Shown here: in pieces, positions 5,107 to 62,513 of the stretch
Layout: every line of letters starts with the position of its first letter
How positions within the stretch are numbered: the first letter of the stretch is position 1
NCBI GenBank assembly: GCA_016845365.1
Contig: JAERST010000011.1
Location: 65,044 to 129,043 of the forward strand
DNA length: 64,000 bases
Direction of reading: 5' to 3'
From: Methanobacteriota archaeon
GTDB taxonomy: Archaea > Thermoplasmatota > Poseidoniia > Poseidoniales > Thalassarchaeaceae
Made by a program: the position numbers and the translations under genes
The notes under the pieces: generated by a model
What the model was told of the DNA's origin: nothing
The model's database searches: none
What the model saw: the letters and a program-made list of their open reading frames with translations, nothing else

Positions 5107-5915
5107 AACCCGCCCTCCGTCTCGAATAATACATCACGACTCCGGGCCAGAAACCTCTCCCCAGAATCGACAAACAAAACCTGTCCGGTCACCGCCCTTG
5201 CGCCTACGAGATAACCAACCGCTTCAGCGATATCTTCGGGCGCCGGCCCGAAGCCGAGCGGGCTCTCTGATTGAGCCCGCTCGAACCCTTCTGCAGTCTG
5301 GTCGTTGCTCGCAAGCGTGTGCCCGGGGGCGACCGCATTGACGCGCAGGCGTGGTGCGAGTCCGCGGGCGAGGGCGTCGGTGAGTCCCAACAGTGCGTAG
5401 CGCGAGGCCGTGTACGAGAGATGGTCCGGATTCGGGTCAGCGATTTTCTGGTCGAGGATGTTGACGACTGATCCTGCCGGGCCGCTTTCTGTGCCGGGCG
5501 TGCTGCCCGCCGCGCCGCCTGCTGCACCGTTCGGCAATTGTTCGAGGAGCGCGCGCGTGAGGAGCATCGGTGCGCGCGCGTTGACATCCATGTGCGAGCC
5601 CCACGACTCATAATTGACGCTCTCGATATCGTCGTGTTCGAATTTTGAGGCATTGTTAACGAGGTGTGTTATCGGTCCAATTTCTTCACTGGCTTTTGCC
5701 AGCAGAGATTCGACCGCGCCAGCATCTGAAAGGTCCGCTTGGATAGCACAGGCTTCGACGCCTAGGCTTCGGATACGTTCGACCAGTGCCTCGGCGTCAT
5801 CACTTGATGAATTGTGGTGAACTGCGACCGAGTGTCCTTTTTCTGCTAGGTGAAGGCAAATTGCAGCGCCGATTCTTCTCGCCCCTCCTGTTACGAGCGC
5901 TGCACTGCGAGCCAT
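5103..5915 (-). CDS. Short-chain dehydrogenase, FolM / pteridine reductase-like
   Basis: The 270-residue SDR has the N-terminal cofactor motif TGGARRIG. That is the TGxxxRxG form seen in pteridine reductase and FolM rather than the common TGxxxGxG, and it implies NADPH use. It also has LVNNAS, the catalytic region LSYTASRYALLGL (Tyr with the R at the usual Lys site of YxxxK) and the C-terminal GQVLFVDSG. With folB directly downstream and overlapping, it likely reduces dihydropterin or dihydrofolate. The ATG at 5915 is preferred over longer in-frame starts because a TATATA-like box (5938-5944) is centred 26 nt upstream. The Lys-to-Arg change in YxxxK should be confirmed before assuming normal catalysis. 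Confidence 0.8.
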   Translation of the reverse strand: MARSAALVTGGARRIGAAICLHLAEKGHSVAVHHNSSSDDAEALVERIRSLGVEACAIQADLSDAGAVESLLAKASEEIGPITHLVNNASKFEHDDIESVNYESWGSHMDVNARAPMLLTRALLEQLPNGAAGGAAGSTPGTESGPAGSVVNILDQKIADPNPDHLSYTASRYALLGLTDALARGLAPRLRVNAVAPGHTLASNDQTAEGFERAQSESPLGFGPAPEDIAEAVGYLVGARAVTGQVLFVDSGERFLARSRDVLFETEGGL

Positions 5916-12277: not shown

Positions 12278-12964
12278 ATGCGCCCGCTGCGAATTCTGCG
12301 AGCAGAAATCGAACCTCACGCAGCGGTCGATGAGGCGATGCGCCGCCTGCAACAGCAGCGCATCGAGGACGAGATTCCCGACACGCTAATCCTCGTCCAA
12401 CACCCAGAAGTTGTGACACTAGGCCCGAAAGCGGAGCGCGACGGAGCTTTGGAAGACCCGGCATTGGCGGATTATGCAACGACAATCGTCGACCGAGGTG
12501 GGGGGATGACCTACCACGGACCCGGCCAACTCGTCGGCTACCCGATCATCAAATGGCAACAGGATGAACAGTCAGTTCGCAGCATCATCAACCGAATCGA
12601 AGACTGGGTAATGGCCGCTCTCGCCGACTGCGGAATCGAAGGATACCGCGACGAACGGATGATGGGAGTTTGGCTTGAAAACCACAAGATTTGCTCCATC
12701 GGACTGGCCTTCAAACACTGGGTCAGCCGTCACGGACTCGCCCTCAATTACAACACGAATGGAGGTCGCATCGAGGCACTGACCTGCTGTGGACTCGATG
12801 CGGGAATGACAACTTCACTCGCCGCCCTTGGCCATACCCATGACATCGAAGGGCGGCTTCTCGACCGCGCCCGATTCGAAGAAGCACTGCTGGTTCATGC
12901 TGAGGAATACCTCGGGCGCGTACCGATGATTCCAGAGGATTGGACGCCGGGGTTGGTCGTCTGA
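12278..12964 (+). CDS. lipB: Octanoyltransferase (lipoyl(octanoyl) transferase)
   Basis: LipB transfers octanoate from acyl carrier protein (or another donor) to the lipoyl domain lysine, the substrate of LipA. The 228-residue product has the family segments VQHPEVVTLGPKA, VDRGGGMTYHGPGQLVGYP, the Lys in NHKICSIGLAF and the Cys region EALTCCGLDAGMTTSL, in the right order. GTGAGG lies before the ATG. Archaea often use a split lipoate ligase (LplA) instead, so the bacterial-type LipA/LipB pair beside the complex it modifies suggests acquisition as a unit. The following aminotransferase frame overlaps its 3' end. Confidence 0.92.
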   Translation: MRPLRILRAEIEPHAAVDEAMRRLQQQRIEDEIPDTLILVQHPEVVTLGPKAERDGALEDPALADYATTIVDRGGGMTYHGPGQLVGYPIIKWQQDEQSVRSIINRIEDWVMAALADCGIEGYRDERMMGVWLENHKICSIGLAFKHWVSRHGLALNYNTNGGRIEALTCCGLDAGMTTSLAALGHTHDIEGRLLDRARFEEALLVHAEEYLGRVPMIPEDWTPGLVV

Positions 12965-14145
12965 GACCGCCTCGCAGCGAATTGGCTCACCATTGGTCGC
13001 TAGACCCCGACATTACCTTCCTCAACCACGGCTCATTTGGTGCAACACCGACCGCTGTGCTCGATGAACAATCTCGCATTCGAGCGCAGATGGAATCTGA
13101 CCCTGTTCGTTTCTTTGAGCGCGATGCTGTCGAATTGATGGCTAAGTCGGTCGGATCAATCTCAGAATTCCTCAATGCCGACCGAGATGGAATGACTTTC
13201 TGCCACAACGCTACCGGCGGAATCAACACGGTTCTGCGTAGCCTTGAGCTAAACGCCGGTGACGAAATCATCGTTCCCGACCACGCCTACCAAGCCTGTT
13301 GGAACGCGGTCGAATTCGTTGCACAGCGAGCTGGCGCGAAGGTAGTCGTGGTCGATTTACCATTCCGTTGTGAGTCAGAGGATGAAATCATCGAGCCATT
13401 GCTCACGGCGATTTCGCCGCGTACAGTTCTCGCGATGATCGACACTGTGACCAGCCCGACAGGAATGAGGATGCCATTCGAGAGGCTGGTCGCTGAATTC
13501 CAAGCGCGCGGCGTCGATGTTCTACTCGATGCCGCCCACGGACCGGGTATCGTCCCGTTGGACCTCGACAAACTCGACGTGGCTTGGATTACCGGCAATT
13601 GCCACAAATGGTTGTGCTCGCCGAAGGGGGCTGCTTTCCTGCACATCCGCGAGGATAAGCGAGAATCAACCAAGCCATTGACCATCAGTCACGGCTTCAA
13701 TGCCGAAATGTCAGCGGTGGAAAAATTCCGCTTTGAGTACGATTGGCAGGGGACTAGCGACCCGTCTGCAATCTTCTCAATCCCAAAATCGATTGAGACT
13801 CTCGAATCGATGGTGTCGGGCGGATTTGAAGCCATCATGGAGCGAAATAACAACCTCGCCCGAGCCGGCCGCGACGTGCTCTGCGAGAGCCTTGGAACCG
13901 ATGCACCACACCCCGATTCGATGGTAACTGCAATGGCGACAATCGACCTTCCGGGAACTTATGACGGCCCGCCAGATTTCCGTGGCGACCCACTTCACAA
14001 TGGCCTGCTGGACGACTGGGGAATTCAGGTTCCCGTCTTCCCGTGGCCTCACCACGAAATGCGATATTTCCGCATCTCTTCCTACCTCTACAACTCACTC
14101 GCGGAATACGAATACCTCGCTCAGGCATTGAGCGAATCGATGTGA
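12940..14145 (+). CDS. Class V aminotransferase, isopenicillin N epimerase-like
   Basis: A pyridoxal-phosphate enzyme of the class V (cysteine desulfurase/epimerase) superfamily. The N-terminal LNHGSFGATP is typical of the isopenicillin N epimerase-like group. DAAHGPG carries the cofactor-contacting Asp and His, and GNCHKWLCSPKG holds the Schiff-base lysine (K223 when counted from 12940). No ATG occurs near the N-terminus; TTG codons at 12940 and 12982 are the candidate starts, the first overlapping lipB by 25 bp. The substrate is unknown. By location it could supply sulfur for lipoate as a desulfurase, but the epimerase-like subgroup argues against assuming that. Confidence 0.78.
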   Translation: MDAGVGRLRPPRSELAHHWSLDPDITFLNHGSFGATPTAVLDEQSRIRAQMESDPVRFFERDAVELMAKSVGSISEFLNADRDGMTFCHNATGGINTVLRSLELNAGDEIIVPDHAYQACWNAVEFVAQRAGAKVVVVDLPFRCESEDEIIEPLLTAISPRTVLAMIDTVTSPTGMRMPFERLVAEFQARGVDVLLDAAHGPGIVPLDLDKLDVAWITGNCHKWLCSPKGAAFLHIREDKRESTKPLTISHGFNAEMSAVEKFRFEYDWQGTSDPSAIFSIPKSIETLESMVSGGFEAIMERNNNLARAGRDVLCESLGTDAPHPDSMVTAMATIDLPGTYDGPPDFRGDPLHNGLLDDWGIQVPVFPWPHHEMRYFRISSYLYNSLAEYEYLAQALSESM

Positions 14146-37821: not shown

Positions 37822-38679
37822 TTAGAGCAAAAGACTGCTGAAATCGTAGATGTACCGAAGTAGGCCAACGGATACTATCAGCACAAATGATGTATTGATT
37901 AGCCTCGAGGGCACCAATTTGATCGCGGTCGTAGCTCCAGTCCAAGCGACCGCGGCCACCGAAGCACAGACCAATGCCACGGCGAACGGCGAGGCAAGAT
38001 GCGAAATTGTGGAAAAGCCACCATTTGTCCACAGATGGACCGCGAGTGCAGCAGGAACTCCAATGAATTCTACAGAATAACTCGTTCCAGCAGCCGTATG
38101 TGAACCAAGCCCAGCATACGAACGGCCAAGCATTACCATTACCGCGCCACCTCCTATTCCTAGAATCCCAGCAGAAAGTCCACCGATACCGCAGCCAACC
38201 TCGTATCGAGCGAGGGGGTGATTTTCGGTGGTGTCAGTCTCTAAGTTGCCCTTCTGCGCCTTTGATTCCATCTGGGTCGAATTGATATGTGTTTTTTCCA
38301 TCTTCATCTGCTCGAGAGTATTAAGTAGAACAAATGACATTAGAAAAATAACACTAGCTTTGACGAACAATTCCGAGACATTTTCCAGTAGGAAATATCC
38401 AATCATTGAACCGAGAACAGCCGCTGGTACGTAAACTGATAGTCCAACCTTAGCAGCTCTGGCATCCTCCTTTCCTTGCTGATGATGTGCAACCATCGAC
38501 CCGAGTGAGACCATCCAAACGAGACTCAATGAACCAATCATCGCTTCTTCAAGAGTCCAACCCAATACATAATGCAGGATCGGTACAAACAGAATACCTC
38601 CGCCCAATCCAATTGGAGAAAAAAGAAGGGCTACTGTAAATATCAATAATAATGCGATTATAGTTTCTACCAGCATCAT
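37822..38679 (-). CDS. TauE/SafE family sulfite exporter (first copy)
   Basis: An eight-or-so-helix permease of 285 residues with the duplicated family pattern: FSPIGLGGGILFVPILHYVLGW in the first half and GILGIGGGAVMVMLG plus HTAAGTSY in the second. Family members export sulfite or sulfoacetate. The central loop (about residues 125-160) is soluble and charged. It is encoded divergently from the ArsR regulator, with a TATA box and a palindrome between TATA and ATG. Codon use is clearly more A/T-rich than in the genes to its left. Confidence 0.88.
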   Translation of the reverse strand: MMLVETIIALLLIFTVALLFSPIGLGGGILFVPILHYVLGWTLEEAMIGSLSLVWMVSLGSMVAHHQQGKEDARAAKVGLSVYVPAAVLGSMIGYFLLENVSELFVKASVIFLMSFVLLNTLEQMKMEKTHINSTQMESKAQKGNLETDTTENHPLARYEVGCGIGGLSAGILGIGGGAVMVMLGRSYAGLGSHTAAGTSYSVEFIGVPAALAVHLWTNGGFSTISHLASPFAVALVCASVAAVAWTGATTAIKLVPSRLINTSFVLIVSVGLLRYIYDFSSLLL

Positions 38680-38684
38680 CCAAA

Positions 38685-38723
38685 GTCCTTCTGAAGGACC
38701 GCCGATGGCCGTGCGTATATAAT
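38685..38723 (-). promoter_or_regulatory. TATA box and operator-like palindrome of the tauE gene
   Basis: On the minus strand ATTATATA (38716-38723) lies 40 bases before the ATG, predicting transcription start near 38692. The perfect palindrome GTCCTTC-T-GAAGGAC (38685-38699) covers that position and contains a possible AAGGA ribosome-binding site. An ArsR repressor gene is transcribed away from the other side, so this is a good operator candidate. Confidence 0.55.
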
Positions 38724-38800
38724 CATTTTCTTATATTCTTTTTTTTTAATATGACAATAGTTTTATGTTCCTAGTTACGCCCGCGATTGTTGGTGAGAGC

Positions 38801-39187
38801 ATGATGGAGAGTGCCTCAGATTCCGAATTTTCTCGTGAAGAGCGATTCGGTGCAGCTGCAGCAATAATGCTACGAACTCTCGGGCATCCAGATAGATTGA
38901 GAATTCTTGAGTTTCTGATGGATGGGGAAAGAACGGCAGGTCAAATTCAGAAGCATCTGGATATTGGCCAACCAAGATCCTCGCAACACCTCTCAAGAAT
39001 GAACGATAGAGGCATTCTGGAATGCAGAAAGGAAGGAACGAAGAGATTCTATTCGATCTCAAATCCCTTTGTTCTGAAGCTTTTTGGATGTTTCACTGAA
39101 TGTAGAACCAAAGTAGGTTCAGGAGAATGGGCTCATTTGCTCGAAGCGTTCATGGAGGCGAATGGAAATGACACAACAGACATATGA
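38801..39187 (+). CDS. ArsR family transcription regulator
   Basis: A winged-helix regulator of 128 residues with RTLGHPDRLRILEFLMDGE, the recognition region GQPRSSQHLSRMNDRGILE and the wing CRKEGTKRFYSI. Cysteines occur in ILECRK and twice in LFGCFTECR. These could form a thiol or persulfide switch, as in BigR/SqrR-type ArsR proteins, though positions differ. GGTGAG four bases before 38801 supports this start; an ATG at 38765 is possible. It probably controls the tauE and tusA-side genes. Its last 26 bp overlap tusA. Confidence 0.87.
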   Translation: MMESASDSEFSREERFGAAAAIMLRTLGHPDRLRILEFLMDGERTAGQIQKHLDIGQPRSSQHLSRMNDRGILECRKEGTKRFYSISNPFVLKLFGCFTECRTKVGSGEWAHLLEAFMEANGNDTTDI

Positions 39188-39407
39188 CGATGAATTGGAT
39201 TGCTCAGGGATGAATTGTCCCTTGCCAGTATTGAAGACAAAAATGAAGATTGACGAAATGACGAAGGGCGCTGTGCTTTTAGTGAGTACAACCGACCCTG
39301 GTTCCTGCAAAGATATGCCAGCTTGGGCATCTAGGGTCGGACACAAAATTGTTGATTCAGGTGAAGTGGATGGCCGATTTTTGTTCTACGTTCAGAAAGG
39401 TGAATGA
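39162..39407 (+). CDS. tusA: TusA family sulfur carrier
   Basis: The 81-residue protein has the TusA signature DCSGMNCPLPVLKTK with the persulfide-carrying Cys19 in CPLP. TusA-type proteins accept sulfane sulfur from rhodaneses or desulfurases and pass it on to DsrE-type proteins or to cofactor synthesis. It overlaps the arsR end and directly abuts the dsrE2 gene, so all three are co-translated. The company of DsrE2, rhodanese and a molybdoenzyme suggests a role in dissimilatory or detoxifying sulfur transfer rather than tRNA thiolation. Confidence 0.92.
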   Translation: MEMTQQTYDDELDCSGMNCPLPVLKTKMKIDEMTKGAVLLVSTTDPGSCKDMPAWASRVGHKIVDSGEVDGRFLFYVQKGE

Positions 39408-39920
39408 ATGACCGACGAACCGAAGAAGATGGCGATCATCGCTTCGCAAGGATCCTTGGACTGGGCTTATCCACCCTTTATTCTCGCCTCGACCGCCGCA
39501 GCGATGGGAATAGAAACCAAGGTCTTCTTTACTTTCTATGGACTCCCATTATTGAAGCCGGAAATAAAAGCCAAGGTCACCCCGGCAGCCAATCCAGCTA
39601 TGCCGATGAAGATGCCATTCGGACCAAAGGGATTCCAAAGCATCAATTGGCCGATACCCCACGCAGTCAGTGGAGTTATGCCGGGTTTCGACACTGTTGC
39701 AACATCCTTGATGAAAAAGACATTTGCGAACAAAGGTGTCGCAACCATCACCGAACTTCGTGATATGTGCTTAATGCTCGGAGTTGATCTTATTGCGTGC
39801 CAGATGACGATGGATGTCTTCGGATTCGAAGAGAAGGATTTCATCGAAGGAATCAGTTATGCTGGAGCGGCAGCATTTCTTGACTTCGCAGTTGACGCCG
39901 ACATACAATTGTTCATCTGA
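39408..39920 (+). CDS. DsrE/DsrF-like sulfur transfer protein (DsrE2 type)
   Basis: A 170-residue protein starting KKMAIIASQGSLDWAYPPFI, with FFTFYGLPLL and the conserved cysteines in RDMCLMLGVDLIACQMTMDVFG. This is the DsrE2/DrsE-like pattern (the bacterial counterparts carry sulfur in an exchange with TusA and are often membrane-linked). There is no clear transmembrane helix, though AAAFLDFAVDADIQLFI closes the fold. tusA ends at the base before its ATG. Confidence 0.87.
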   Translation: MTDEPKKMAIIASQGSLDWAYPPFILASTAAAMGIETKVFFTFYGLPLLKPEIKAKVTPAANPAMPMKMPFGPKGFQSINWPIPHAVSGVMPGFDTVATSLMKKTFANKGVATITELRDMCLMLGVDLIACQMTMDVFGFEEKDFIEGISYAGAAAFLDFAVDADIQLFI

Positions 39921-39933
39921 AAGGAGTGGTCCC

Positions 39934-41082
39934 ATGGCTCAGAGTTATTCTGCTGCAGAACTCTATGAGTGGATTGAGAATGGTGCATCTCACATCTACC
40001 TCGATGTACGAAATGAGGAGGACCATTCTCGATTCGCGGTCGAGGGGCCCCACAATATCGAAATGCGGAACATCCCCTACTTTGATTTCATTGAGGCGCC
40101 TGAACAAGCTTCATCTCATCTAGATCCTGAGTCGTCGGTGAGGGTTATTTGTGCGAAGGAAGGGTCGGCTCAATTCGTTGCGGAAGTTCTAGAATCTCTT
40201 GGATTCATCGATGTTTCTTGGTTGGAAAAAGGAATCATATCTTGGGGGAACTTACTGATTCCAAAGCGTATTCCTTCCCCAGATAATTACCAATTATGGC
40301 AGTTCAATCGGCCAGGTAAGGCCTCTTGCTCCTACGGACTCATCCATGCCGATGAAATGATGGTTTTCGACCCAAGTCGAAACATCGGGTTTTACAGTGA
40401 TTTTGCCACACAAAGGGATTTGACAATTACTCACGTCTTTGACACTCATCTACAAGCTGATTATATCTCTGGAGGCCCAAACCTTGCCAAGATTTCGCAA
40501 GCTGAATATATTGTCCATGAGGGAGACTTTTCTGGTAGTGATATTGAATTTCGACCAATAGTTGACGGCGAGCGTATTCAATTCAATAATTCATCAGGGC
40601 CAGATATTCTTTGCACTCATTCACCAGGGCACACACCCGGCTCGACTACATTTGTAATCGACGAACGATTCATGATATCTGGAGATACAGTGTTTATCGT
40701 CTCGGTCGGAAGACCTGACCTCGGCCGAAAAGTCGTGGAATGGGCTAAAGAACTCTATCGAACTCTAAAGACACGTATCTGCACATTACCAGAGAATTTG
40801 ATTGTCTTACCTGGACATTATACTGATTGGGATTTAGAGTCGACTGATGATTATCTGATTCTAAATGACTTCGGAACCGTAAAGAGAATGAATGAGGATA
40901 TTTATGAAATCGATGATGAAGACCAATTCGTTGAATATATCATTGAAAATATGAGAGAACAACCCGAAGTGTATGATGAAATTCGGAAGGTAAACGCTGG
41001 ATTCATCGATCCTGATGAAGACGAACAAGACATCATGGACCTGGGGAAGAATGAGTGTGCAGCTAGCCACATGGTCTCTTGA
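39934..41082 (+). CDS. Rhodanese-metallo-beta-lactamase fusion (persulfide dioxygenase-like)
   Basis: Residues 1-110 form a rhodanese-like domain (HIYLDVRNEEDHSRF, Cys73 in RVICAKEGS). Residues about 120-340 form a metallo-beta-lactamase fold with THSPGHTPGSTTF, ISGDTVFIVSVGRPDL and LPGHYTDW. The order is the reverse of most ETHE1-rhodanese fusions. The first metal motif reads DTHLQADY: H172 is kept, but the positions usually occupied by the next two His are Q174 and Y177. The protein may act on persulfides to give sulfite, or may bind metal differently. AAAGGAGTGG supports the ATG at 39934. The last 50 residues form an acidic tail. Confidence 0.85.
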   Translation: MAQSYSAAELYEWIENGASHIYLDVRNEEDHSRFAVEGPHNIEMRNIPYFDFIEAPEQASSHLDPESSVRVICAKEGSAQFVAEVLESLGFIDVSWLEKGIISWGNLLIPKRIPSPDNYQLWQFNRPGKASCSYGLIHADEMMVFDPSRNIGFYSDFATQRDLTITHVFDTHLQADYISGGPNLAKISQAEYIVHEGDFSGSDIEFRPIVDGERIQFNNSSGPDILCTHSPGHTPGSTTFVIDERFMISGDTVFIVSVGRPDLGRKVVEWAKELYRTLKTRICTLPENLIVLPGHYTDWDLESTDDYLILNDFGTVKRMNEDIYEIDDEDQFVEYIIENMREQPEVYDEIRKVNAGFIDPDEDEQDIMDLGKNECAASHMVS

Positions 41083-41106
41083 CCTAATGAGGGGGGGGAA
41101 TATAGA

Positions 41107-42519
41107 ATGGTCAATTTCGGCTTCGTCATCGACAACAGAAAGTGCATCGGCTGCCACGCCTGCACGGTCGCCTGCAAGTCCGAACACGACGTTCCTATCG
41201 GGGTCAACCGCACCCACGTCAAATACATCGAGAAGGGCGAATATCCAGATGTTACACGCGAGTTCTCGGTACATCGCTGCAATCATTGCGAGGACTCGCC
41301 GTGTACGACGATTTGTCCGACGACTGCGCTTTTCACTCGAGAGGACGGCATCGTCGACTTCGATGATGACCGTTGTATCGGCTGTAAATCCTGTATGCAA
41401 GCCTGTCCTTACGATGCTTTGTACATCGACCCGAACAAGGGCACTGCGGCCAAGTGTAACTACTGTGCGCACCGGATTGAGCATTCTTACGAGCCCGCGT
41501 GCGTGATCGTTTGTCCTGTTGAGGCGATTGTCTCTGGGGACTTGGATGATGAGAATTCCTCGATTTCGAATTATGTGCGCGAGCACGATGTGACGGTGCG
41601 TAAGCCCGAATCTGGGGCTAAGCCGAATGTGTACTATGTCGAGACGAGCGAGGATATGCTCGACCCTCACGCAACCGAGCGTTCGGGTGAGTATCTCTGG
41701 ACTGACCAAGCCGCTGGTGTTGGGCATTTTGCCAAATACGCTGATTCGCGGCTTGGGGCTGCTAATACCAATTCGATGATTGTGCAATTGGCGCTTGAGA
41801 AGAAGGCGCGGGCTGCTAATCCACGGGATAGGGCGGTCATTCGCGATGTGATGGAGCGCTTGGATGAACAGGCTCAACGGCCCAAGCGCAGTTATGACCA
41901 GCCCGCCAAAGGTGTGCTCTGGGGCTGGGAAGTTTCGGCTTATATCGTCACCAAGGCGGTGGCTGCTGGAACCTATCTGATGGCGATGCTGGCGATGTTC
42001 GCTGGCTTGCTCGAGATGACGGATGAGTTGTGGTGGGAATTGGTCATCGGTTGCACCGCCTTCCTCGGTCTGACCGGATTATTACTGGTCAAAGACCTCG
42101 ACCGGCCTGAGCGCTTTCTCTATGTCATGCTCAGGCCGAATTGGGATTCTTGGTTGGTCAAGGGCGCCTATATTTTGGGCGCTTTCGGCGGCGTTCTGGC
42201 GCTCAGTGGCGCGGTTTTATTCTTCGACCTCGACCGCGCCTATCTCGAATATCTAGCAATCGCTGGAATGCCACTGGCCTTGTTGACTGGAATCTACACA
42301 GCTTGGCTCTTCGGCCAAGCCAAGGGACGAGCCTGGTCCAAGGACCGATTTCTCGCGCCCAAGATGTTCGTCGAGATGGCGATTCTTGGCGGGGCTTCAC
42401 TGATTCTTCTCACATCTGAGGCATTCCTGGACTGGATGGGAGCTGGACTGCTTATCTTCCTCGTTTGCCACCATGCCCACCGAGTGGTCCTCGAGCCACA
42501 ATTGGAGACCCTACACTGA
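41107..42519 (+). CDS. Fused four-cluster ferredoxin and NrfD/PsrC-like membrane subunit
   Basis: Residues 1-150 hold four 4Fe-4S motifs: CIGCHACTVACK (C13, C16, C19, C23), CNHCEDSPCTTICP, CIGCKSCMQACP, and CNYC with CVIVCP. After a linker, residues about 280-465 form five or six membrane helices beginning GWEVSAYIVTKAVAAGTYL, as in NrfD/PsrC-type quinone-binding subunits, but only about half the usual length. In relatives these two parts are separate proteins. The subunit should pass electrons between the molybdoenzyme encoded next door and the quinone pool. No signal peptide, so the iron-sulfur part is cytoplasmic. Confidence 0.9.
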   Translation: MVNFGFVIDNRKCIGCHACTVACKSEHDVPIGVNRTHVKYIEKGEYPDVTREFSVHRCNHCEDSPCTTICPTTALFTREDGIVDFDDDRCIGCKSCMQACPYDALYIDPNKGTAAKCNYCAHRIEHSYEPACVIVCPVEAIVSGDLDDENSSISNYVREHDVTVRKPESGAKPNVYYVETSEDMLDPHATERSGEYLWTDQAAGVGHFAKYADSRLGAANTNSMIVQLALEKKARAANPRDRAVIRDVMERLDEQAQRPKRSYDQPAKGVLWGWEVSAYIVTKAVAAGTYLMAMLAMFAGLLEMTDELWWELVIGCTAFLGLTGLLLVKDLDRPERFLYVMLRPNWDSWLVKGAYILGAFGGVLALSGAVLFFDLDRAYLEYLAIAGMPLALLTGIYTAWLFGQAKGRAWSKDRFLAPKMFVEMAILGGASLILLTSEAFLDWMGAGLLIFLVCHHAHRVVLEPQLETLH

Positions 42520-42525
42520 GGCGAG

Positions 42526-45315
42526 ATGATGGCACGTACATTCATTGAAGATATCGCGCAGAAATTGCGCATTATTCCGAACCTCGACCGAGAGCACGCA
42601 CAAGGCAACCAACAAAGCCTGCGCAAGTTCCCCTCTCCTGACGAGTGGCACAATTTCACCGAACTCGACGCAAATGCCTGGCCGCTTCGCCTTGAGCGAA
42701 ATTACTCGCTAGTCCCGACGACCTGCTTCAATTGCGAATCGGCATGTGGACTCCTCGCCTATGTCGACAAAGACTCCGGACAGGTCTCCAAGTTCGAGGG
42801 TAACCCGCACCACCCCGGTTCGCGTGGCCGAAATTGTGCAAAAGGTCCGGCCACGATCAATCAGATTCAGGATACCGAGCGCATAATGCATCCACTGCGC
42901 CGCACTGGAAAGCGTGGAGAAGGCGGCTGGGAGCGTATCTCTTGGGACGAGGCGCTTGACGAAATCGCCGAAAAAATTCGCGCCTCGCTAAAACGCGGCG
43001 GCGTCGACAAAGTCGTCTATCACGTTGGAAGGCCCGGCCACGAAGGCTATGCCAATCGAGTGCTAAAGGCATGGGGTGTCGACGGTCACAATTCTCACAC
43101 CAATATCTGCTCAGCGGGCGCTCGCACCGGCTACGCACTTTGGCATCAACACGACAGGCCGAGCCCCGACCATACCAATGCCAAAGTCATCCTGCTGACC
43201 TCTTCGCACCTTGAAACTGGACATTACTTCAATCCGCACGCACAGCGTATTCTAGAGGGTATGATGGATGGAGCCAAACTCATCGTCATCGACCCTCGAC
43301 TCTCGAATACTGCGGCCATGGCTGACCATTGGCTTCCGACATGGCCAGGAAGCGAGCCCGCGCTCTTCCTCGCGTGGGCGAAGATGATTCTCGAGCGCGG
43401 GCTATTCGACCGCGAATTCATGGAAACTCAAGTCAACTGGGAGATGTGGATGAACGCGGTCCACCCCGACGAGCCATGCGAGTTTGAGAGATTCATCGAA
43501 TTGCTCGTCGAAGAATACACAGAATACACCCCCGAATTCGCCGCCGCCGAGTGCAGAATCCCCGTCGAACAGGTCATCGAGGCAGGCGAAGTCGTAGCCA
43601 GCGCCGGCAGTCAATTATGCACACATGTGTGGCGCAGTGCAGCGATTGGAAACTTAGGCGGCTGGCAAGTCAGCAGAACTCTCCACTTCCTCAATGTTCT
43701 GACCGGCTCGGTCGGAACAGTAGGTGGCACGAGCCCCAACTCTTGGTCAAAATTCAAGCCGTCTCTCTTCGATGTACCACCAGACCCCGGCGGCTGGAAC
43801 GAACTCCATTTCCCACCAGAGTACACTCTTTCTCACTTCGAGATGAGCCATATCCTGCCGCACCTCGTCAAGGACGGCCGCGGCACAATGGACGTCTACT
43901 TCACTCGAGTTTTCAACCCGGTTTGGACTTACCCTGACGGATTCTCATGGATTGAGATGCTGGAAAACGAAGAGGCAGTCGGCTGCCACATCGCGCTAAC
44001 CCCCACTTGGAACGAGACGGCATTCTTCGCCGACTACGTCCTGCCGATGGGACACGCAAGCGAGCGGCACGACGTCAACTCATACGCTACATCCTCAGGC
44101 AAGTGGGTCGCATTCCGCCAACCCGTTTTGCGCGAGTACGCACGGCGCGAGGGGCGCGAGGTCGAGTTTACCCACGAGGTCAATCCGGGCGAGGTCTGGG
44201 AAGAGGACGAGTTCTGGATCGAGCTTTCTTGGCGCATCGACGATGGCACAATGGGCATCCGCGAGCACTTCATGAGCCCCTATCGCGAGGGCGAGAAAAT
44301 CTCCGTCGATGAGTACTATCAGTATCTTTTCGAGCGCGTCCCGGGACTACCAGAAGCGGCTGCAGCAGAGGATACCGACGCGCTCGGTTACATGCGTCGA
44401 CACGGGGCTTTCTTGATTGAAGAAGCGACCTATGAGAAGCATAAGGAGGAGGGTTGGCCGACGCCGAGCGGGAAGCAGGAATTTTACTCGGAGACGATGA
44501 TTGAGTTCGGTTATCCCGAGCATTCGATTCCGCATTATCGCCAGAAATCTCACGTTCATCCTGACAATTTGAGTGGCGATGACGAGTACTGTCTACTGCC
44601 TAACTTCCGCCTGCCTCAACACATCCACTCTCGCTCTGCCAATGCAAAATGGTTGGTTGAAATCGCTCATCGGAATCCGATTTGGATTCATCCGAAGGAC
44701 GCAAGGAAACTGGGCGTCGCTGAGGGTGACCTGTTGAAAATCGAAACTGAAATCGGTTGGTTCGTCGACAAGGTTTGGGTGACGGAGGGAATCAAACCTG
44801 GCGTCGTTGGATGTTCGCATCATATTGGGCGATGGCGACGAAGTCAAGACCGTGGTAATCGCTTCTTGACGAATGAGGTCGCCATCGAAGATATGGGTGA
44901 AGGCAAGATGAGAATGCGCACTATTAGCGGGGTCGAGCCTTGGAAATCAGACGACCCTGATACTAATCGTATCTGGTGGCGCGATGGGGGAGTTCACCAG
45001 AATATCACCCACGCGGTTCAGCCTGACCCAATTTCTGGCGCCCACTGCTGGCTGCAAAAGGTCAGGCTGTCACGCCCTGCTGAGGGTGAAGAATACGGCG
45101 ATATCGAGGTCGACCGTACGAAGTCATTCGAGTATTACAAGCGCTGGAATGAGTGGGCAAAGGAACGAGAAACTCATCCACGGGGCGAGCGTAGACCCCT
45201 GTGGATGAAGCGTCCATTGGCTCCTCGGAGGGAACATTTCTTCATGCCCGGCTACGGCCCCGACGCCTCAGATTCTCACGAGGCAGAGAGCCAAGATTCA
45301 GAGGAGGTGGAGTGA
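42526..45315 (+). CDS. Molybdopterin oxidoreductase, catalytic subunit (sulfur compound type)
   Basis: DMSO-reductase-superfamily enzyme, 929 residues. The N-terminal 4Fe-4S motif is C67-x2-C70-x3-C74-x29-C104 (TTCFNCESACG ... GRNCAKG). The probable molybdenum ligand is C195 in NICSAGARTGYALW. The C-terminal molydopterin-binding domain has HIHSRSANAKW and HPKDARKLGVAEGDLL. There is no twin-arginine signal, so it works in the cytoplasm, as in SoeABC-type sulfite:quinone oxidoreductases; polysulfide, thiosulfate and tetrathionate reductases usually are exported. It forms a unit with the FeS-NrfD gene seven bases upstream. Substrate by context: sulfite or another sulfur oxyanion; unproven. Confidence 0.9.
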   Translation: MMARTFIEDIAQKLRIIPNLDREHAQGNQQSLRKFPSPDEWHNFTELDANAWPLRLERNYSLVPTTCFNCESACGLLAYVDKDSGQVSKFEGNPHHPGSRGRNCAKGPATINQIQDTERIMHPLRRTGKRGEGGWERISWDEALDEIAEKIRASLKRGGVDKVVYHVGRPGHEGYANRVLKAWGVDGHNSHTNICSAGARTGYALWHQHDRPSPDHTNAKVILLTSSHLETGHYFNPHAQRILEGMMDGAKLIVIDPRLSNTAAMADHWLPTWPGSEPALFLAWAKMILERGLFDREFMETQVNWEMWMNAVHPDEPCEFERFIELLVEEYTEYTPEFAAAECRIPVEQVIEAGEVVASAGSQLCTHVWRSAAIGNLGGWQVSRTLHFLNVLTGSVGTVGGTSPNSWSKFKPSLFDVPPDPGGWNELHFPPEYTLSHFEMSHILPHLVKDGRGTMDVYFTRVFNPVWTYPDGFSWIEMLENEEAVGCHIALTPTWNETAFFADYVLPMGHASERHDVNSYATSSGKWVAFRQPVLREYARREGREVEFTHEVNPGEVWEEDEFWIELSWRIDDGTMGIREHFMSPYREGEKISVDEYYQYLFERVPGLPEAAAAEDTDALGYMRRHGAFLIEEATYEKHKEEGWPTPSGKQEFYSETMIEFGYPEHSIPHYRQKSHVHPDNLSGDDEYCLLPNFRLPQHIHSRSANAKWLVEIAHRNPIWIHPKDARKLGVAEGDLLKIETEIGWFVDKVWVTEGIKPGVVGCSHHIGRWRRSQDRGNRFLTNEVAIEDMGEGKMRMRTISGVEPWKSDDPDTNRIWWRDGGVHQNITHAVQPDPISGAHCWLQKVRLSRPAEGEEYGDIEVDRTKSFEYYKRWNEWAKERETHPRGERRPLWMKRPLAPRREHFFMPGYGPDASDSHEAESQDSEEVE

Positions 45316-45339
45316 ACGGAGGAATTCTACGCCCTGGCT

Positions 45340-46137
45340 GTGATTCTCATCACCGCCTTCATGTTCGCTCCATTGGGGCTGGGCGGTGGCGTCCTCTTTG
45401 TGCCAACACTCCACTTCATCCTCGGTTGGGATTTGCACCTATCCATCGTTGCTTCACTAATCCTCGTCTGGTTCGTCAGCATCGGTAGTCGACAGGCGCA
45501 CGATGAGGGTGGTTACACCGTTGCTGATGTTGGCCGCAAGGGTCGATTGGTGGCGATTGGAGGGGCTGTAATTGGTGCGCTTGCGGCCGATTTGATCTTC
45601 GCTGAGTTCGGAGATGATGTGGTCAAATTCCTAGCTACGATTCTGCTCGCCTGGGTGATTTATCGAGGAATTCAGAAATTGATGGAGGAGCAGCACACCG
45701 ATGTTCACGACGAAAATACCGACCCACAGGTTGAGGGGGCTCTGCTCTATACCTACAAACTCGGTTGTCTGGGTGGTGGGACCGCTTCTGGTCTGATCGG
45801 AGTTGGCGGCGGTGTGATTTTCACCATGCTGAATCGCACGATTCTCGGTCTCGAACCGCATCGTGCGGCAGGAACTTCCTATCTAATCGTCATGCGGGTT
45901 GTTCCGGTTGCAATCGGTGCTCACTTGCTCTTCGAGCCCTCATTGATTGACGATTTGCTCGCGTTGGATTTGACGGTTCTTGCGATTCCACTCGTGGTTT
46001 TGGGAACTTCTTGGGCTGGGGCAAAAACCGCGATTAAGATGTTGCCACAGCGAGTATTGACCTATCCCTATCTAATCGCGGTCTCAGTATCTTTGATTCG
46101 ATATCTGATGGATGTAGCAGAGACACTCGGGCTTTGA
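45340..46137 (+). CDS. TauE/SafE family sulfite exporter (second copy)
   Basis: Same family as the copy at 37822-38679: FAPLGLGGGVLFVPTLHFILGW in the first half, GLIGVGGGVIFTML and HRAAGTSYLI in the second. Codon use is like the surrounding genome, unlike copy one. The start is a problem. The GTG at 45340 cuts the first helix short, while homologous sequence continues upstream to the ACG at 45316 (TEEFYALAVIL), directly after the molybdoenzyme stop and six bases after GGAGGTG. Either ACG is used, or one extra A at 45315-45316 hides a GTG start overlapping the stop (GTGA), as is common in this genome. Confidence 0.85.
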   Translation: MILITAFMFAPLGLGGGVLFVPTLHFILGWDLHLSIVASLILVWFVSIGSRQAHDEGGYTVADVGRKGRLVAIGGAVIGALAADLIFAEFGDDVVKFLATILLAWVIYRGIQKLMEEQHTDVHDENTDPQVEGALLYTYKLGCLGGGTASGLIGVGGGVIFTMLNRTILGLEPHRAAGTSYLIVMRVVPVAIGAHLLFEPSLIDDLLALDLTVLAIPLVVLGTSWAGAKTAIKMLPQRVLTYPYLIAVSVSLIRYLMDVAETLGL

Positions 46138-46159: not shown

Positions 46160-46387
46160 TCAGGCCGCAGGAACGACGTCGTTTTTGCCCCAACCGATCG
46201 TGTTCCAGCCCCTCTCATGCAGGTAATAGAGAATCATCTTGGTGACGACTTCGACGCCTGCAATCGATACTGCAATAGTCGCACTCGAGGTGAAAAAATA
46301 CCCAATCAGGAAGGTATCTGTCGAGGCGATTACTCTCCAGGTCAGCGTTTTGACTAGGCTTCTCTCTCTCGAAACTTGCAGGCTCAT
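46160..46387 (-). CDS. DUF2061 family membrane protein
   Basis: A 75-residue protein with RSLVKTLTWRVIASTDTFLIGYFFTSS, the DUF2061 signature, a second helix and the closing MILYYLHERGWNTIGWG. The family has no assigned function but is often found near sulfate-assimilation genes, which is noteworthy beside this sulfur island. The ATG at 46387 starts just before the conserved part; a longer start at 46456 is not needed. Confidence 0.8.
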   Translation of the reverse strand: MSLQVSRERSLVKTLTWRVIASTDTFLIGYFFTSSATIAVSIAGVEVVTKMILYYLHERGWNTIGWGKNDVVPAA

Positions 46388-46482
46388 CGTTTTCTGAGAG
46401 CGAGCATCTGCGATAACACCTGCGCCGTACAGCCACTGGCCAAAAATGAGGACCACAAGGGTGGCTTAGCAACCGTACAGGC

Positions 46483-58663: not shown

Positions 58664-60399
58664 GCTAATTCTCCACCACCTTCTTTGACCAATCCGAGGC
58701 TCTTCTCAATCTTCATCGAGACTCTAGACAGATAGAATGCGAATACCCAGAATACTAGGGCAGTGACGTAAAGTGGCTCTAGGAAGTTTCCTAAGAAGCG
58801 CAGGTCGGTGGCAGGGAGGTCCTTTGCCAGCTTGAAGAAGTCGAGAATGTTGATGATGAAAAGTAGTGTAGTGTCCTTCCATAGGCCAATGAAGACGCTG
58901 ACGATCGAAGGCAGTGTAGTTCGGACTGCATTGGGCAATTCGACGGTCAACTTGGTTTGGAATGGTGAAAGACCGAGTGCGATTGCCGCCTCTTTTTGTC
59001 CACTGTCGACTGCTTGTAGACCACCTCTGAGTACCTCTGCGATGTAACATCCTCCGAAGATTCCGAACATCAGAAGCATGCGAATAATGTCCTCTGCATT
59101 ATAGAACGGATCCATCATATCTGGCATCAAGAATACTGCGAACCAAAGCCAACAAATTAACGGGCCAGAGCGAACAAGCTCGATTAGAATGACCGAAGGT
59201 ACGCTGAAGAATGGTTGATTGCTCTGGCGACCAAATGCCAGAATAACACCGATTCCGAATCCGATTACACAACCTGCTGTTGCTACAATGAGATTCACGA
59301 AAAGTCCGCCCCATTGAGAGGCTTCGATGCCATCTCCGGATAGCTTGTCCAGAGTGCTCGGAACTACTGCGCCAGAGGTGATTTCATCACTGCCTGCTAC
59401 AGCAGGTGTGCCACCTAGAAGTGCAGCGAAATCCTTCACAAACTCTGGAGGATTCATGATCATAATTGCGAAGAAGAATGTTGCAACGGCCGCGATCGCG
59501 ATATTGCGCCTTAGGCGATTGGCTTTGTATTCCTCAGAAATAGAGCAGTAGTAGAATGAAGCGCCATATGCAATGTAGCCGATGATCATGGCCTTGGCGA
59601 GATTCAACAGAGGAACCTCCTCGTAGTAGTTGATTTCTGCCGGAACCCATGCAATTCCCATCAAGAATAGGGAAAGGAATGTGAATGGAATTAGGAATCT
59701 AGCTGGCTTGTCTGCAGTGGTTCCGTAGGCGCTTGCGATGACGGCGAAGGTTGGATACAATATCCACCACAAGCGCCAGTTCTGGTTGATACCATAACAA
59801 TTCAAGACATCAATACAAGACTGTGAGCCGGGTGATTGTGTCATCTGCTCGGTCATTTGTTGGCCGACTACCAATAGAACTCGGTTGGCCCAGACGACAT
59901 CCCAATCTGCTTCGACTAGAACGAAGTGGCTAAGCCCTCGAACTGCAACAACGACAATCCAAGCGGTGGTGATTCCCAGTAATGCGGTGGTGAGGGTCTT
60001 TCCAGGCGTCCACTTGATTAGCGCTGTGAGAGTAACCCACCAAGCGAATATAATCGCAGCAGCAGAAAGAATTCCGTAAATCTGAGCTTGAGGAATTGAG
60101 AGGTGAATGAACGAAGTCGAGATGATCATATTTCCTGCGCCTTCGGCCTCAGCTTTGGCTACCAATTCGAAGTAACCATTCAACAAGAATTCCTCAAACA
60201 TTCCTCCGAAAATTCCGAAGCAGAGCGCCAGAGTCATCGCAATGGCGGAGAGAATTGAGCTGTTACCCTCAGTAACCCATTTGATTCTACTTCGCAATAA
60301 TCCCTCATGGTGGTCCGTAGGGAAACCACCAGGCTTACCTACAATCGACTCCTCTAATTCGAGAATCGATTTGATGGAGAGTCCTCCTCTAGAATTCAT
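58660..60399 (-). CDS. aapM: Polar amino-acid ABC transporter permease (AapM-like, extended)
   Basis: The C-terminal 200 residues are a HisM/GlnP-type permease with the EAA motif [20 protein letters not shown] and the family start [19 protein letters not shown]. The first 350 residues contain six or more extra helices ([39 protein letters not shown]), making it about 200 residues longer than usual AapM. It overlaps aapQ by four bases and aapP by four. It should form a heterodimeric channel with AapQ. Confidence 0.88.
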
Positions 60400-62513
60400 A
60401 TCTTCACCTTCGTAACTCTAGAGTTGTACCAGTTCATTACCGCCGAAATCGCAAGGCTACCTACTTGGTACGTGATGAGGAGAAGAATGAACAGTGGAAT
60501 CAGTTTACCCACGTTATTCATCATCACTAGAATAACGTAGAATATGTCGCTATAGGCGACGATTACCGCTAGACTGGAGTTCTTCCAGACATTCATGAAT
60601 TGGTTATTGAACAGAGGCACCATGCTCCTCAATGCCTGAGGGAGAATCACCAACCTGAGCCTCTGGAAAGGACTCAGTGAGAGCGATATTGCTGCCTCCA
60701 CCTGACCCCGAGGTAGAGACTGAATACTCCCTCGCACAATCTCTGCCACGGTTGATGCAGTAAACAACGTGAGACCGAGCATCATTGCGAGGAAGAACGG
60801 AGTTATCTCGAAGCCAGTGCCTTCTGCGATATGCCAAGAACCAGGGGAGTCGATAACTCCGTCTCCATTCCAATCCTTGACGTATTCCGGCCAAGATAGG
60901 CCCTTGGAAAGTGCAATCCCCGCTGCAACAGCGAAACCCCCCACCCAGATAGTGAATCTCTTCCTTAGCCCTTCTTCCGAATCATCGATTTCCATTGAGT
61001 TGATGCCATCGTCATCAACAGCACTCGTAATCGCAAAGGAATAGACGAGTAGAGCGATTCCGGTTGCTGCTCCGAATCCCCCTCCGTGAGTTGAGGCGAA
61101 TGGTACGAAGAGGTCTACGAAGATCACCGCAGCAGCGACGAGGAAGAGGTCTGAAACCAGAGCCTCAAGTTTCCATCCAAGTGTACTGAAGGGTCTTTTC
61201 AGATGGCCAATTGGGGTGCTCGGATTGACAATCACTCGCGGTTCGATTCTATCCATATGTCGTAGCGTTACTCTAAGTAAAGCAAGAGCGATGATTCCAA
61301 TCATCAGCCTTTGGTAAGAGGCAACAGTGACGAACCAAATTCCTTGATTGCTGAAGAAGACCGCACCTCCAAACAAGAATACCTCCTCGCTAAATAATGG
61401 GGCCTGCATGCCAAACTGAGTAGCTATCAGGAATAGTAGAACCGCTAGTGGGAGGTTCCTGAATACCTCGACGTAAACAGTAGCCATTGTCGAAGCCAAC
61501 TTGTTGTTGGATAGTCGAGTTACTCCGACCAAAGTACCGAGGATTACACACAATACAATACTCAGCAAGGTAACCCGAGCGGAATTAATTATGGCCGCTT
61601 TGAGGAATAACCACCTTGAATCGATATTTGGCTCAACTTCCATCGGCCAAGGATTGATCTTGAAGGTGTTCACACTTTCCATGAAGTCGAATTTAATCTC
61701 CCACCGATTAGCCATCACCGGATCAGGGTCATGCTGTAGGTAAATTACCCTGAGAAGTAGATACATGATGAAGGGTAAGAGTGCCAAGTATGCGAGCGCA
61801 GCCGTCCTTCTCTCCTGCACAGAGGGTTTCATGCCTTCCTGAGATAATCTCCAAGCCCAATAGAAGACAGTAATCAGAGTGACGACTGAGAGGAAAAATG
61901 GGATATCTTGGGAAATGGCTGGAATCATCGAAATATTCAGAGTGAGAATAACGAAGACAAGAATCGAGCCAATCGTGACAAGAATTGCAGGCTCGCGGAG
62001 AGTCGATTGAATATTGGAGGGCCTGATGGCGAAAACCTCTGGAATGTTGTCCTGTAGAAGGATGATGCCTGCTACTACGGCACCTCCAAAGAAAAGGAAC
62101 GGCACTTGAGAACCAGGCGTTAACTCGAGGAAAACCAGTAATACGAACGATATCGCGAAGCTAGCGATTGCAAAGAAGGTAGTTGAGCATTCCAATACCG
62201 CATTCATATCGCCCCGGCGGAGCCCTCCCAAGATAGTCCGCAACTCATTCTTGACCAGTAAGAAACAGAGGAGAATAAGTCCACCGACAATTAGAGCCAA
62301 GGTGCTCATCGGAACAAATGAGGGGTTCATTTGTGTGTCATTGATGGTGATATCCCTGGACATCGCCGATAGATATTCGACAGACATTCCGAGGAACTTA
62401 TTCGAATATATCCAGAATAGATAGACACCCATGATTGGTACTACGTATCCTGTCAAGAAGTCTCGAGGAGAATTGACCCGAGGCAGGGATGATGTGAAGC
62501 CCCGGAAGTCCAT
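60396..62513 (-). CDS. aapQ: Polar amino-acid ABC transporter permease (AapQ-like, extended)
   Basis: The product of 705 residues is much longer than usual AapQ (about 400). The N-terminal 270 residues are a bundle of extra helices. The permease core starts at IINSARVTLLSIVLCVILGT and resumes after a further insert with the EAA motif EAAISLSLSPFQRLRLVILPQ. One outside loop contains DWNGDGVID, a DxNxDGxxD calcium-type loop. The ATG at 62513 sits in the 3' arm of a GC-rich hairpin (62510-62534), so translation may depend on opening it. Confidence 0.88.
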   Translation of the reverse strand: MDFRGFTSSLPRVNSPRDFLTGYVVPIMGVYLFWIYSNKFLGMSVEYLSAMSRDITINDTQMNPSFVPMSTLALIVGGLILLCFLLVKNELRTILGGLRRGDMNAVLECSTTFFAIASFAISFVLLVFLELTPGSQVPFLFFGGAVVAGIILLQDNIPEVFAIRPSNIQSTLREPAILVTIGSILVFVILTLNISMIPAISQDIPFFLSVVTLITVFYWAWRLSQEGMKPSVQERRTAALAYLALLPFIMYLLLRVIYLQHDPDPVMANRWEIKFDFMESVNTFKINPWPMEVEPNIDSRWLFLKAAIINSARVTLLSIVLCVILGTLVGVTRLSNNKLASTMATVYVEVFRNLPLAVLLFLIATQFGMQAPLFSEEVFLFGGAVFFSNQGIWFVTVASYQRLMIGIIALALLRVTLRHMDRIEPRVIVNPSTPIGHLKRPFSTLGWKLEALVSDLFLVAAAVIFVDLFVPFASTHGGGFGAATGIALLVYSFAITSAVDDDGINSMEIDDSEEGLRKRFTIWVGGFAVAAGIALSKGLSWPEYVKDWNGDGVIDSPGSWHIAEGTGFEITPFFLAMMLGLTLFTASTVAEIVRGSIQSLPRGQVEAAISLSLSPFQRLRLVILPQALRSMVPLFNNQFMNVWKNSSLAVIVAYSDIFYVILVMMNNVGKLIPLFILLLITYQVGSLAISAVMNWYNSRVTKVKI

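Follow-up and report, generated by a model that had tools for sequence, protein, structure and literature searches.

A sulfur-gene island of planktonic archaea with a putative two-gene sulfite:quinone oxidoreductase and an exchangeable front end proposed to make sulfite

Results and discussion

The window analysed here is a stretch of 64,000 nucleotides from an archaeon of the order Poseidoniales (contig JAERST010000011.1, assembly GCA_016845365.1), and it contains an island of sulfur-related genes with a two-gene pair (41107-45315) as its core, encoding a fused ferredoxin and NrfD membrane subunit (FeS-NrfD) and the catalytic subunit of a molybdopterin oxidoreductase (MoOR). Judged from its sequence features and gene context, this pair is likely to be a sulfite:quinone oxidoreductase combined with an exchangeable sulfite-producing front end, which in the window would be the cassette of ArsR, TusA, DsrE2 and a rhodanese-metallo-beta-lactamase (rhodanese-MBL) fusion and in three relatives a type II sulfur-oxidising heterodisulfide reductase-like (sHdr) cluster with LbpA. 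Planktonic Euryarchaeota of this type are usually seen as photoheterotrophs that respire oxygen and feed on proteins and lipids, and in the main text of two large Marine Group II (MGII) genome studies no dissimilatory sulfur oxidation is described. The wider proposition, which could equally well prove right or wrong, is that some lineages of this abundant planktonic order are facultative sulfur oxidisers, in which sulfane sulfur would be converted to sulfite by a persulfide dioxygenase (PDO) with a remodelled metal site or by a complete type II pathway of sHdr-LbpA and electron transfer flavoprotein (ETF) and then to sulfate by a two-gene PSRLC3-type enzyme, and that the enzyme family, with members in a dozen phyla, is a common sulfite oxidase among aerobes which surveys built on SoeABC overlook. 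If this is true, many of these archaea would draw electrons from sulfite and a few from sulfur at the persulfide or thiosulfate level, which would tie them into marine sulfur cycling. The reading also puts a name that can be tested on a molybdoenzyme family annotated only as "molybdopterin-dependent oxidoreductase" in the records examined, and it points to a single operon position where two unrelated systems for making sulfite substitute for each other.

The oxidoreductase core

The 4Fe-4S cluster cysteines of MoOR are Cys67, Cys70, Cys74 and Cys104, while Cys195 occupies the metal-ligand position, aligns with Cys173 of PsrA and is a cysteine in 122 out of 122 relatives. At the N-terminus neither a twin-arginine motif nor a hydrophobic segment was found, and since it lacks a signal for twin-arginine translocation (Tat) the subunit is predicted to be cytoplasmic. 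FeS-NrfD has four ferredoxin-type cysteine groups and about six to seven hydrophobic segments but no signal peptide, and the closest solved relative of its FeS part is PsrB/NrfC (2vpw_B, 163 bits). When compared with hidden Markov models and solved structures (PDB), MoOR was most similar to PhsA/PsrA-type enzymes; its score with the curated PhsA model, 192.9 bits, stayed below the cut-off of 694. A quick tree, which is given moderate weight as its deep lengths are saturated, placed MoOR in a 57-row group together with the Chlorobium enzyme and apart from Psr, Arr, Dms and Nap (SH-aLRT 99).

The architecture recalls PSRLC3 of green sulfur bacteria, a proposed alternative sulfite-oxidising system of two genes (PMC5473276), which likewise consists of a fused 4Fe-4S/NrfD subunit and a molybdopterin subunit. 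Pairs of this kind, about 55% identical and with TauE, DsrE2 and TusA nearby, were found in Chlorobium sp. N1 and in two Chlorobium-type loci from metagenome-assembled genomes (MAGs), and the architecture of the Chlorobium pair, rather than its locus tags, is the ground for provisionally equating it with PSRLC3. The archaeal enzyme differs in its host and in having ArsR-TusA-DsrE2-rhodanese-MBL, or sHdr, as its front end, and for PSRLC3, too, the role in sulfite oxidation is a proposed one. With SoeABC the pair would share a cytoplasm-facing Mo-bisPGD (molybdenum-bis-pyranopterin guanine dinucleotide) subunit with a cysteine ligand, a four-cluster FeS protein, an NrfD-type anchor and the lack of a Tat signal, whereas SoeABC, the system of Allochromatium vinosum and Aquifex aeolicus, is tabulated with SoeB and SoeC as two distinct subunits (PMC8076601) and here FeS and NrfD are fused in 470 residues. 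SoeABC-type enzymes had been invoked when the sequence was read on its own, which holds for the predicted mode of action and not for the subunit structure. In a review, SoeA and bacterial SreA are grouped as cytoplasmic enzymes with a cysteine ligand, and the published SoeC sets comprise Proteobacteria, Clostridia and Aquificae only and do not include the phyla of the MoOR family.

Replacement of the front end

In three relatives (G046, G116 and G221, of three genera and two families) a type II sHdr-LbpA cluster takes the slot of rhodanese-MBL directly 5' of the oxidoreductase genes (loci L096 and L038 in G046, L095 and L055 in G116, L099 and L190 in G221). The gene order in this form is ArsR-TusA-DsrE2-DsrE3(-like)-LbpA-HdrC1-HdrB1-HdrA-hyp-HdrB3-EtfB-EtfA-CCG/4Fe-4S membrane protein-FeSNrfD-MoOR, with DsrE2 some 11-12 kb upstream of MoOR in G046 and G116. 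The clusters fit the definition of type II sHdr, that is shdrC1B1AHB3 and etfAB in one cluster (PMC11582611), together with LbpA. A search of the order for HdrB1 gave matches in these three genomes only, the complete set being present in each, and divergently oriented lipoylation genes, sLpl(AB)-LipS1-LipS2, were seen in G116 and G221 only. In Pfam and NCBIfam searches GCV_H scored 115.6 bits and LplA-B 148.8 bits, while LipS1, at 205.7 bits, fell short of its cut-off of 230. The cluster of G221 is split over two contigs, each terminating in LbpA, while that of G046 is flanked by the usual genes of the order, FolP and TraB to the left and thiolase and SPFH to the right, and is thus no stray contig. 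A relative of rhodanese-MBL (35%) that lacks the metal-binding residues occurs alongside sHdr in G221 (G221:C111, L099 2131-2862).

The sHdr system makes sulfite in the cytoplasm, and in a survey of sulfur oxidisers soeABC was present in every genome with sHdr (PMC6397845). As two non-homologous cytoplasmic sulfite-making systems are swapped in front of the same oxidoreductase, this replacement is the strongest argument for sulfite as the substrate of MoOR. These clusters, which belong to the relatives and not to the window, agree with known type II sHdr-LbpA in shdrC1B1AHB3, etfBA, LbpA, LipS1, LipS2, sLpl(AB), TusA and DsrE2, and differ in their host, a planktonic archaeal order, and in leading straight into FeSNrfD-MoOR. 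The literature examined on the order makes no mention of sHdr-LbpA in Poseidoniales; published sHdr surveys take in the whole set of GTDB genomes and may contain these archaea without naming them.

The rhodanese-MBL protein

The rhodanese-MBL protein of the window has the rhodanese Cys73 and retains His172, His233 and Asp251, which we take, from ETHE1 and PRF, to be the iron-ligand positions. The His-His-Asp positions of the mononuclear-iron enzymes are thus present in its MBL fold, while an intact HxHxDH motif is absent and is replaced by HLQADY in the window protein and in the archaeal copies with the kept triad; the PDB rhodanese-MBL proteins 3r2u and 3tp9 have HIHADF and bacterial homologs HAHADH. 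Compared with BpPRF, CstB-type proteins and ETHE1, it shares the MBL and rhodanese domains and the triad positions, its closest matches in sequence and fold being 3r2u, 3tp9, 5ve3-5 and 4chl, but its rhodanese domain is N-terminal and the second histidine of the motif is lost. The protein is proposed to be a variant persulfide dioxygenase, and the dioxygenase step would be the weakest of the mechanism put forward below.

Distribution and modularity in Poseidoniales

The order comprises hundreds of genomes, 1-2 Mb in size, from two families; together with an archaeal tRNA C56 methyltransferase and a MoOR-ferredoxin-TraB arrangement as in MGII, this points to Ca. Poseidoniales. Orthologs of MoOR, in a set 76-95% identical, were found in 82 of 293 genomes and in 15 of the 22 genera of the order, a count that includes G225, which enters only via a probable contaminant contig. 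Beyond the order, a single genome from a different family of the class carries MoOR (73%), and elsewhere the sampled phylum gave only a distant match of 33%. FeS-NrfD is the constant partner of MoOR wherever the contig extends (40 loci), while the ArsR-TusA-DsrE2-rhodanese-MBL cassette occurs in some lineages of both families and is absent from others, in which FeS-NrfD has TraB or a different gene as its immediate neighbour. Mapping the front-end state on the MoOR tree (37 archaeal rows) gave seven changes, and at least five for rhodanese-MBL when judged by the well-supported branches. DsrE2 was present in 20 of the 293 genomes, 19 of them also with MoOR (Fisher p = 9e-11, uncorrected for kinship); 17 of the 20 carry rhodanese-MBL, three carry sHdr and none carries both. 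The island is modular, with a front end that is optional and exchangeable. Its gene order recurs in tens of genomes of the order and is not due to chance; an absence of this order from all related genomes, which would have spoken against the sulfur reading, was not observed.

Some loci depart from these forms. In G034 (L053, ~5487-5760 in MoOR orientation) a truncated TusA match and a DsrE2 remnant precede an intact rhodanese-MBL gene, and in G005, G171, G234, G249 and G270 MoOR lies in two to three pieces through frameshifts or stops, reflecting either assembly errors or gene decay. The divergent MoOR copy of G225 was considered as an archaeal paralog and rejected, its contig L065 (G225:C94) being high in GC content and carrying bacterial genes; it is probably an actinobacterial (Acidimicrobiia-like) contaminant in an archaeal MAG. 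This contig has the order FeSNrfD-MoOR-PDO-YeeE/YedE, an independent PDO/YeeE neighbourhood.

The wider family and its neighbourhoods

A tblastn search of plasmids revealed relatives of 47-55% identity in haloarchaea, Rhodococcus jostii RHA1 and Thermomicrobium roseum, and a genome scan revealed at least 567 relatives of MoOR. The best 80 of these, which were examined, are named bacterial loci and span Chloroflexota, Bacteroidota, Chlorobiota, Calditrichota, KSB1, Acidobacteriota, Planctomycetota, Rokubacteria and others, with a FeS-NrfD match adjoining MoOR in 72. In R. jostii RHA1 the genes for ArsR, MBL, DsrE2, TusA, FeS-NrfD and MoOR are grouped; haloarchaea have rhodanese, TauE, FeS-NrfD, MoOR, a MobA-type gene and a PHO4/PiT-type permease together; a Bacteroidetes MAG has CsoR-RhdMBL-TusA-DsrE2-FeSNrfD-MoOR-SulP, a Chloroflexota MAG TusA-DsrE2-RhdMBL-FeSNrfD-MoOR-SulP, and Chlorobium sp. 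N1 a near-complete set with TauE. The set is therefore not peculiar to planktonic archaea, as the five core genes also stand together in the two MAGs and in R. jostii RHA1. When neighbours at 5 kb or less from MoOR were compared with those farther away in the 80 loci, the counts were 17 and 2 for SulP, 8 and 0 for TauE, 9 and 0 for DsrE2, 10 and 0 for TusA and 22 and 8 for PDO; 39 of the loci have at least one such neighbour (pooled binomial p = 7e-7, uncorrected for kinship). MoOR thus belongs to a family with sulfur genes as neighbours, and a placement in a clade acting on non-sulfur substrates, which would have spoken against a sulfur role, was not found.

The window MoOR is closest to copies from Bacteroidota (59-62%) and the archaeal clade is nested among bacterial ones, which suggests that the archaeal enzyme may have been acquired by transfer from bacteria.

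Two plasmid loci of more distant relatives are recorded here. In Sulfurovum mangrovi (L089, 8781-12166) the record leaves unannotated a gene for a related molybdoenzyme that bears a Tat signal and what look like frameshifts; its use as a proxy for SoeA was dropped on account of these two features. In Azoarcus sp. KH32C (pAZKH, L090) an operon for a Tat-bearing molybdoenzyme lies beside arsA/arsB and comes with genes for a sigma-54 regulator, for a sensor kinase and for a binding protein of PhnD-like type, an arrangement that recalls the regulation of arsenite oxidation.

Proposed mechanism and alternative explanations

From these data a scheme can be proposed for substrate, direction, electron path, regulation and transport. 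TusA and DsrE2 would pass sulfane sulfur to rhodanese-MBL, or to sHdr, and rhodanese-MBL would oxidise the persulfide to sulfite with O2; in the three relatives type II sHdr-LbpA would stand in for it, and in most relatives the lone enzyme would receive sulfite of other origin. MoOR, acting like SoeABC, would oxidise sulfite to sulfate at a cysteine-ligated Mo/W-bisPGD centre, and the electrons would pass from its 4Fe-4S cluster through the four clusters of the ferredoxin domain to quinone at the NrfD part, and from there to a terminal oxidase and O2. ArsR is probably a repressor sensing reactive sulfur, and the TauE permeases may export excess sulfite or sulfate. Sulfite as substrate is supported by the neighbours DsrE2, TusA, persulfide dioxygenases, SulP and TauE, as well as by a catalytic subunit that has no Tat signal and a cysteine rather than a serine at the metal-ligand position. 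The genome of the window encodes haem-copper oxidases, with two COX1 genes, and in its 84%-complete assembly neither sulfite reductase (PF01077) nor sulfite oxidase (PF00174) was detected.

Several observations weigh against this scheme. Neither front end is present in 61 of the 82 genomes with MoOR, some of these being incomplete and many loci having TraB directly adjoining FeS-NrfD, so the substrate need not derive from the cassette. In all archaeal copies that keep the triad the second histidine of HxHxDH is changed to glutamine and the last to tyrosine, which makes dioxygenase activity uncertain, and the AlphaFold model is poor at the rhodanese-MBL active site (mean pLDDT 55); the best fold matches of this low-confidence model, persulfide-dioxygenase/rhodanese proteins, confirm the superfamily only. 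The neighbour test is uncorrected for phylogeny and PDO taken alone is non-significant (p = 0.11), the deep branches of the tree are saturated, and the nearest outgroup found is the frameshifted Sulfurovum plasmid copy (~41%) with an upstream Tat signal (RRSFLKG), resembling periplasmic Psr. The likeness to SoeABC is drawn from the description of that system, and the functions given for the family members examined are predictions.

The Sulfurovum outgroup, the top similarity to PhsA/PsrA-type enzymes and the proposal that cytoplasmic Psr-like enzymes of Campylobacterota reduce sulfur (PMC10045233) could also be taken to mean that MoOR works reductively in the cytoplasm as a polysulfide, sulfur or thiosulfate reductase like Psr or Sre, with TusA and DsrE2 bringing sulfane sulfur as electron acceptor. 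This is unlikely in view of the oxidative or O2-using partners (persulfide dioxygenase and sHdr-LbpA-ETF), the sulfate and sulfite transporters and the haem-copper oxidases; moreover the carriers include T. roseum, R. jostii RHA1, Flavilitoribacter and Ktedonosporobacter, all of which we take to be aerobes. The reductase direction, which the sequence-only reading had left undecided, is hence disfavoured. Its other suggestion, that sulfane sulfur is turned into sulfite and then oxidised or expelled, gained from the sulfur genes and sulfate/sulfite transporters next to MoOR in unrelated phyla and from the sHdr replacement in the same slot, and has to be narrowed as the front end is optional. Far less probable still is an action of MoOR on arsenic or selenium oxyanions in the manner of Arr/Arx, with ArsR as arsenic sensor: an ArsR-family gene heads the operon, ArrA (6cz7) is among the closest solved structures (122.5 bits) and the Azoarcus relative (29-33%) adjoins arsA/arsB, but no ars genes were seen near the family members examined. 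An arsenate or arsenite enzyme was rejected on the score of 122.9 bits with NCBIfam ArrA, whose cut-off is 1600, and on the sulfur-specific neighbours TusA, DsrE2, PDO, sHdr, SulP and TauE. That MoOR is a dimethyl sulfoxide (DMSO) or S-oxide reductase for anaerobic respiration is scarcely credible. In MGII a neighbourhood of MoOR, ferredoxin and TraB, resembling the one found here, was earlier read as DMSO respiration (PMC6741140, citing Martin-Cuadrado 2008); at subfamily level there is similarity to dmsA_ynfE (182.8 bits, far below the cut-off of 777.7). The neighbours, however, belong to sulfur oxidation, and a DMSO reductase was rejected because Cys195, invariant among the relatives, stands against the serine of E. 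coli DmsA/YnfF and no Tat signal is present.

A stronger competitor, held to be somewhat less probable than an even chance, keeps the biochemistry of a sulfite:quinone oxidoreductase and differs in its role, which would be detoxification and redox housekeeping, dealing with the sulfite and persulfides that the breakdown of amino acids and organosulfur compounds releases, and not energy gain from inorganic sulfur. The oxidoreductase has no sulfane-sulfur front end in most genomes, TauE exporters adjoin it, sets of PDO and ArsR are typical of sulfide or persulfide stress and Sox genes did not turn up in the stretches examined, all in line with such a role. Against it stands the complete type II sHdr-LbpA-ETF upstream in three relatives, a system that elsewhere serves dissimilatory sulfur oxidation, and an NrfD-linked enzyme would deliver electrons to quinone regardless. 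The sulfite oxidation proposed here may serve either energy gain or mere disposal of sulfite.

Layout of the locus

All eight genes first noted are present and each scored above the Pfam gathering score in a profile search of the window proteins (Table 1). From ArsR to TauE2 they lie on one strand with spacings of -26, 0, 13, 24, 6 and 24 bases, and because of this close spacing they are read as one operon; the scores and the spacing together bear out the eight-gene sulfur set, nearly back to back, that had been described from the sequence alone. TauE1 is divergent from ArsR with a gap of 85 bases.

Table 1. Genes of the sulfur island and their Pfam scores (positions in the window)
Gene product	Position	Strand	Length (aa)	Remarks
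TauE/SafE permease 1 (TauE1)	37822..38679	-	285	Pfam TauE 85.5 bits; possible sulfite/anion exporter
ArsR/SmtB-type regulator	38765..39187	+	140	HTH_5 42.4 bits
TusA sulfur carrier	39162..39407	+	81	Pfam TusA 79.0 bits; 26-base overlap with ArsR
DsrE2-type sulfur carrier	39408..39920	+	170	PF13686 162.4 bits
Rhodanese-metallo-beta-lactamase fusion	39934..41082	+	382	rhodanese 38.7, Lactamase_B 28.6 bits
Fused four-cluster ferredoxin and NrfD membrane subunit	41107..42519	+	470	Fer4_11 78.7, NrfD 51.4 bits
Mo/W-bisPGD catalytic subunit (MoOR)	42526..45315	+	929	molybdopterin 65.8, Molydop_binding 61.0, Fe4S4 45.1 bits
TauE/SafE permease 2 (TauE2)	45340..46137	+	265	Pfam TauE 75.6 bits; candidate sulfite/anion exporter; start codon uncertain

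ArsR scored 70.4 bits with HTH_metalloreg, which is over the cut-off, and scored well below the cut-offs of both the BigR and TsoR models; it has cysteines at position 86 and in the C-terminal helix, the latter being common to the archaeal homologs in the alignment. The CP motif of TusA is conserved in all alignment rows, and DsrE2 scored 204.5 bits with the NCBIfam DsrE2 model against a cut-off of 210. The start of rhodanese-MBL was corrected and is most likely the ATG at 39934, preceded by GGAG, instead of 39814.

Both TauE permeases are present, as in the earlier picture of an island bounded by two sulfite exporters, but they form no fixed borders since both genes are missing from many relatives: TauE1 is variable and missing from most relatives, and a good number of relatives, though not every one, have TauE2 3' of MoOR. 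An ATG start is lacking in TauE2 of the window, and the GTG at 45340 is the first ATG/GTG/TTG after the MoOR stop, in frame with MoOR; between the two genes, which share one reading frame, lie a TGA and 24 bases (45313-45345). A DUF2061 membrane protein (46160-46456) adjoins the island and one to two copies of it remain in many relatives that lack both the cassette and TauE.

Elsewhere in the window, 12940-14145 encodes a SufS/PvdN-like pyridoxal phosphate (PLP) protein that scored under every curated cut-off, and 60396-62513 an unusually long form (705 residues) of a permease-type protein for polar amino acids of the ATP-binding cassette (ABC) type, with genes for a binding protein and an ABC ATPase nearby.

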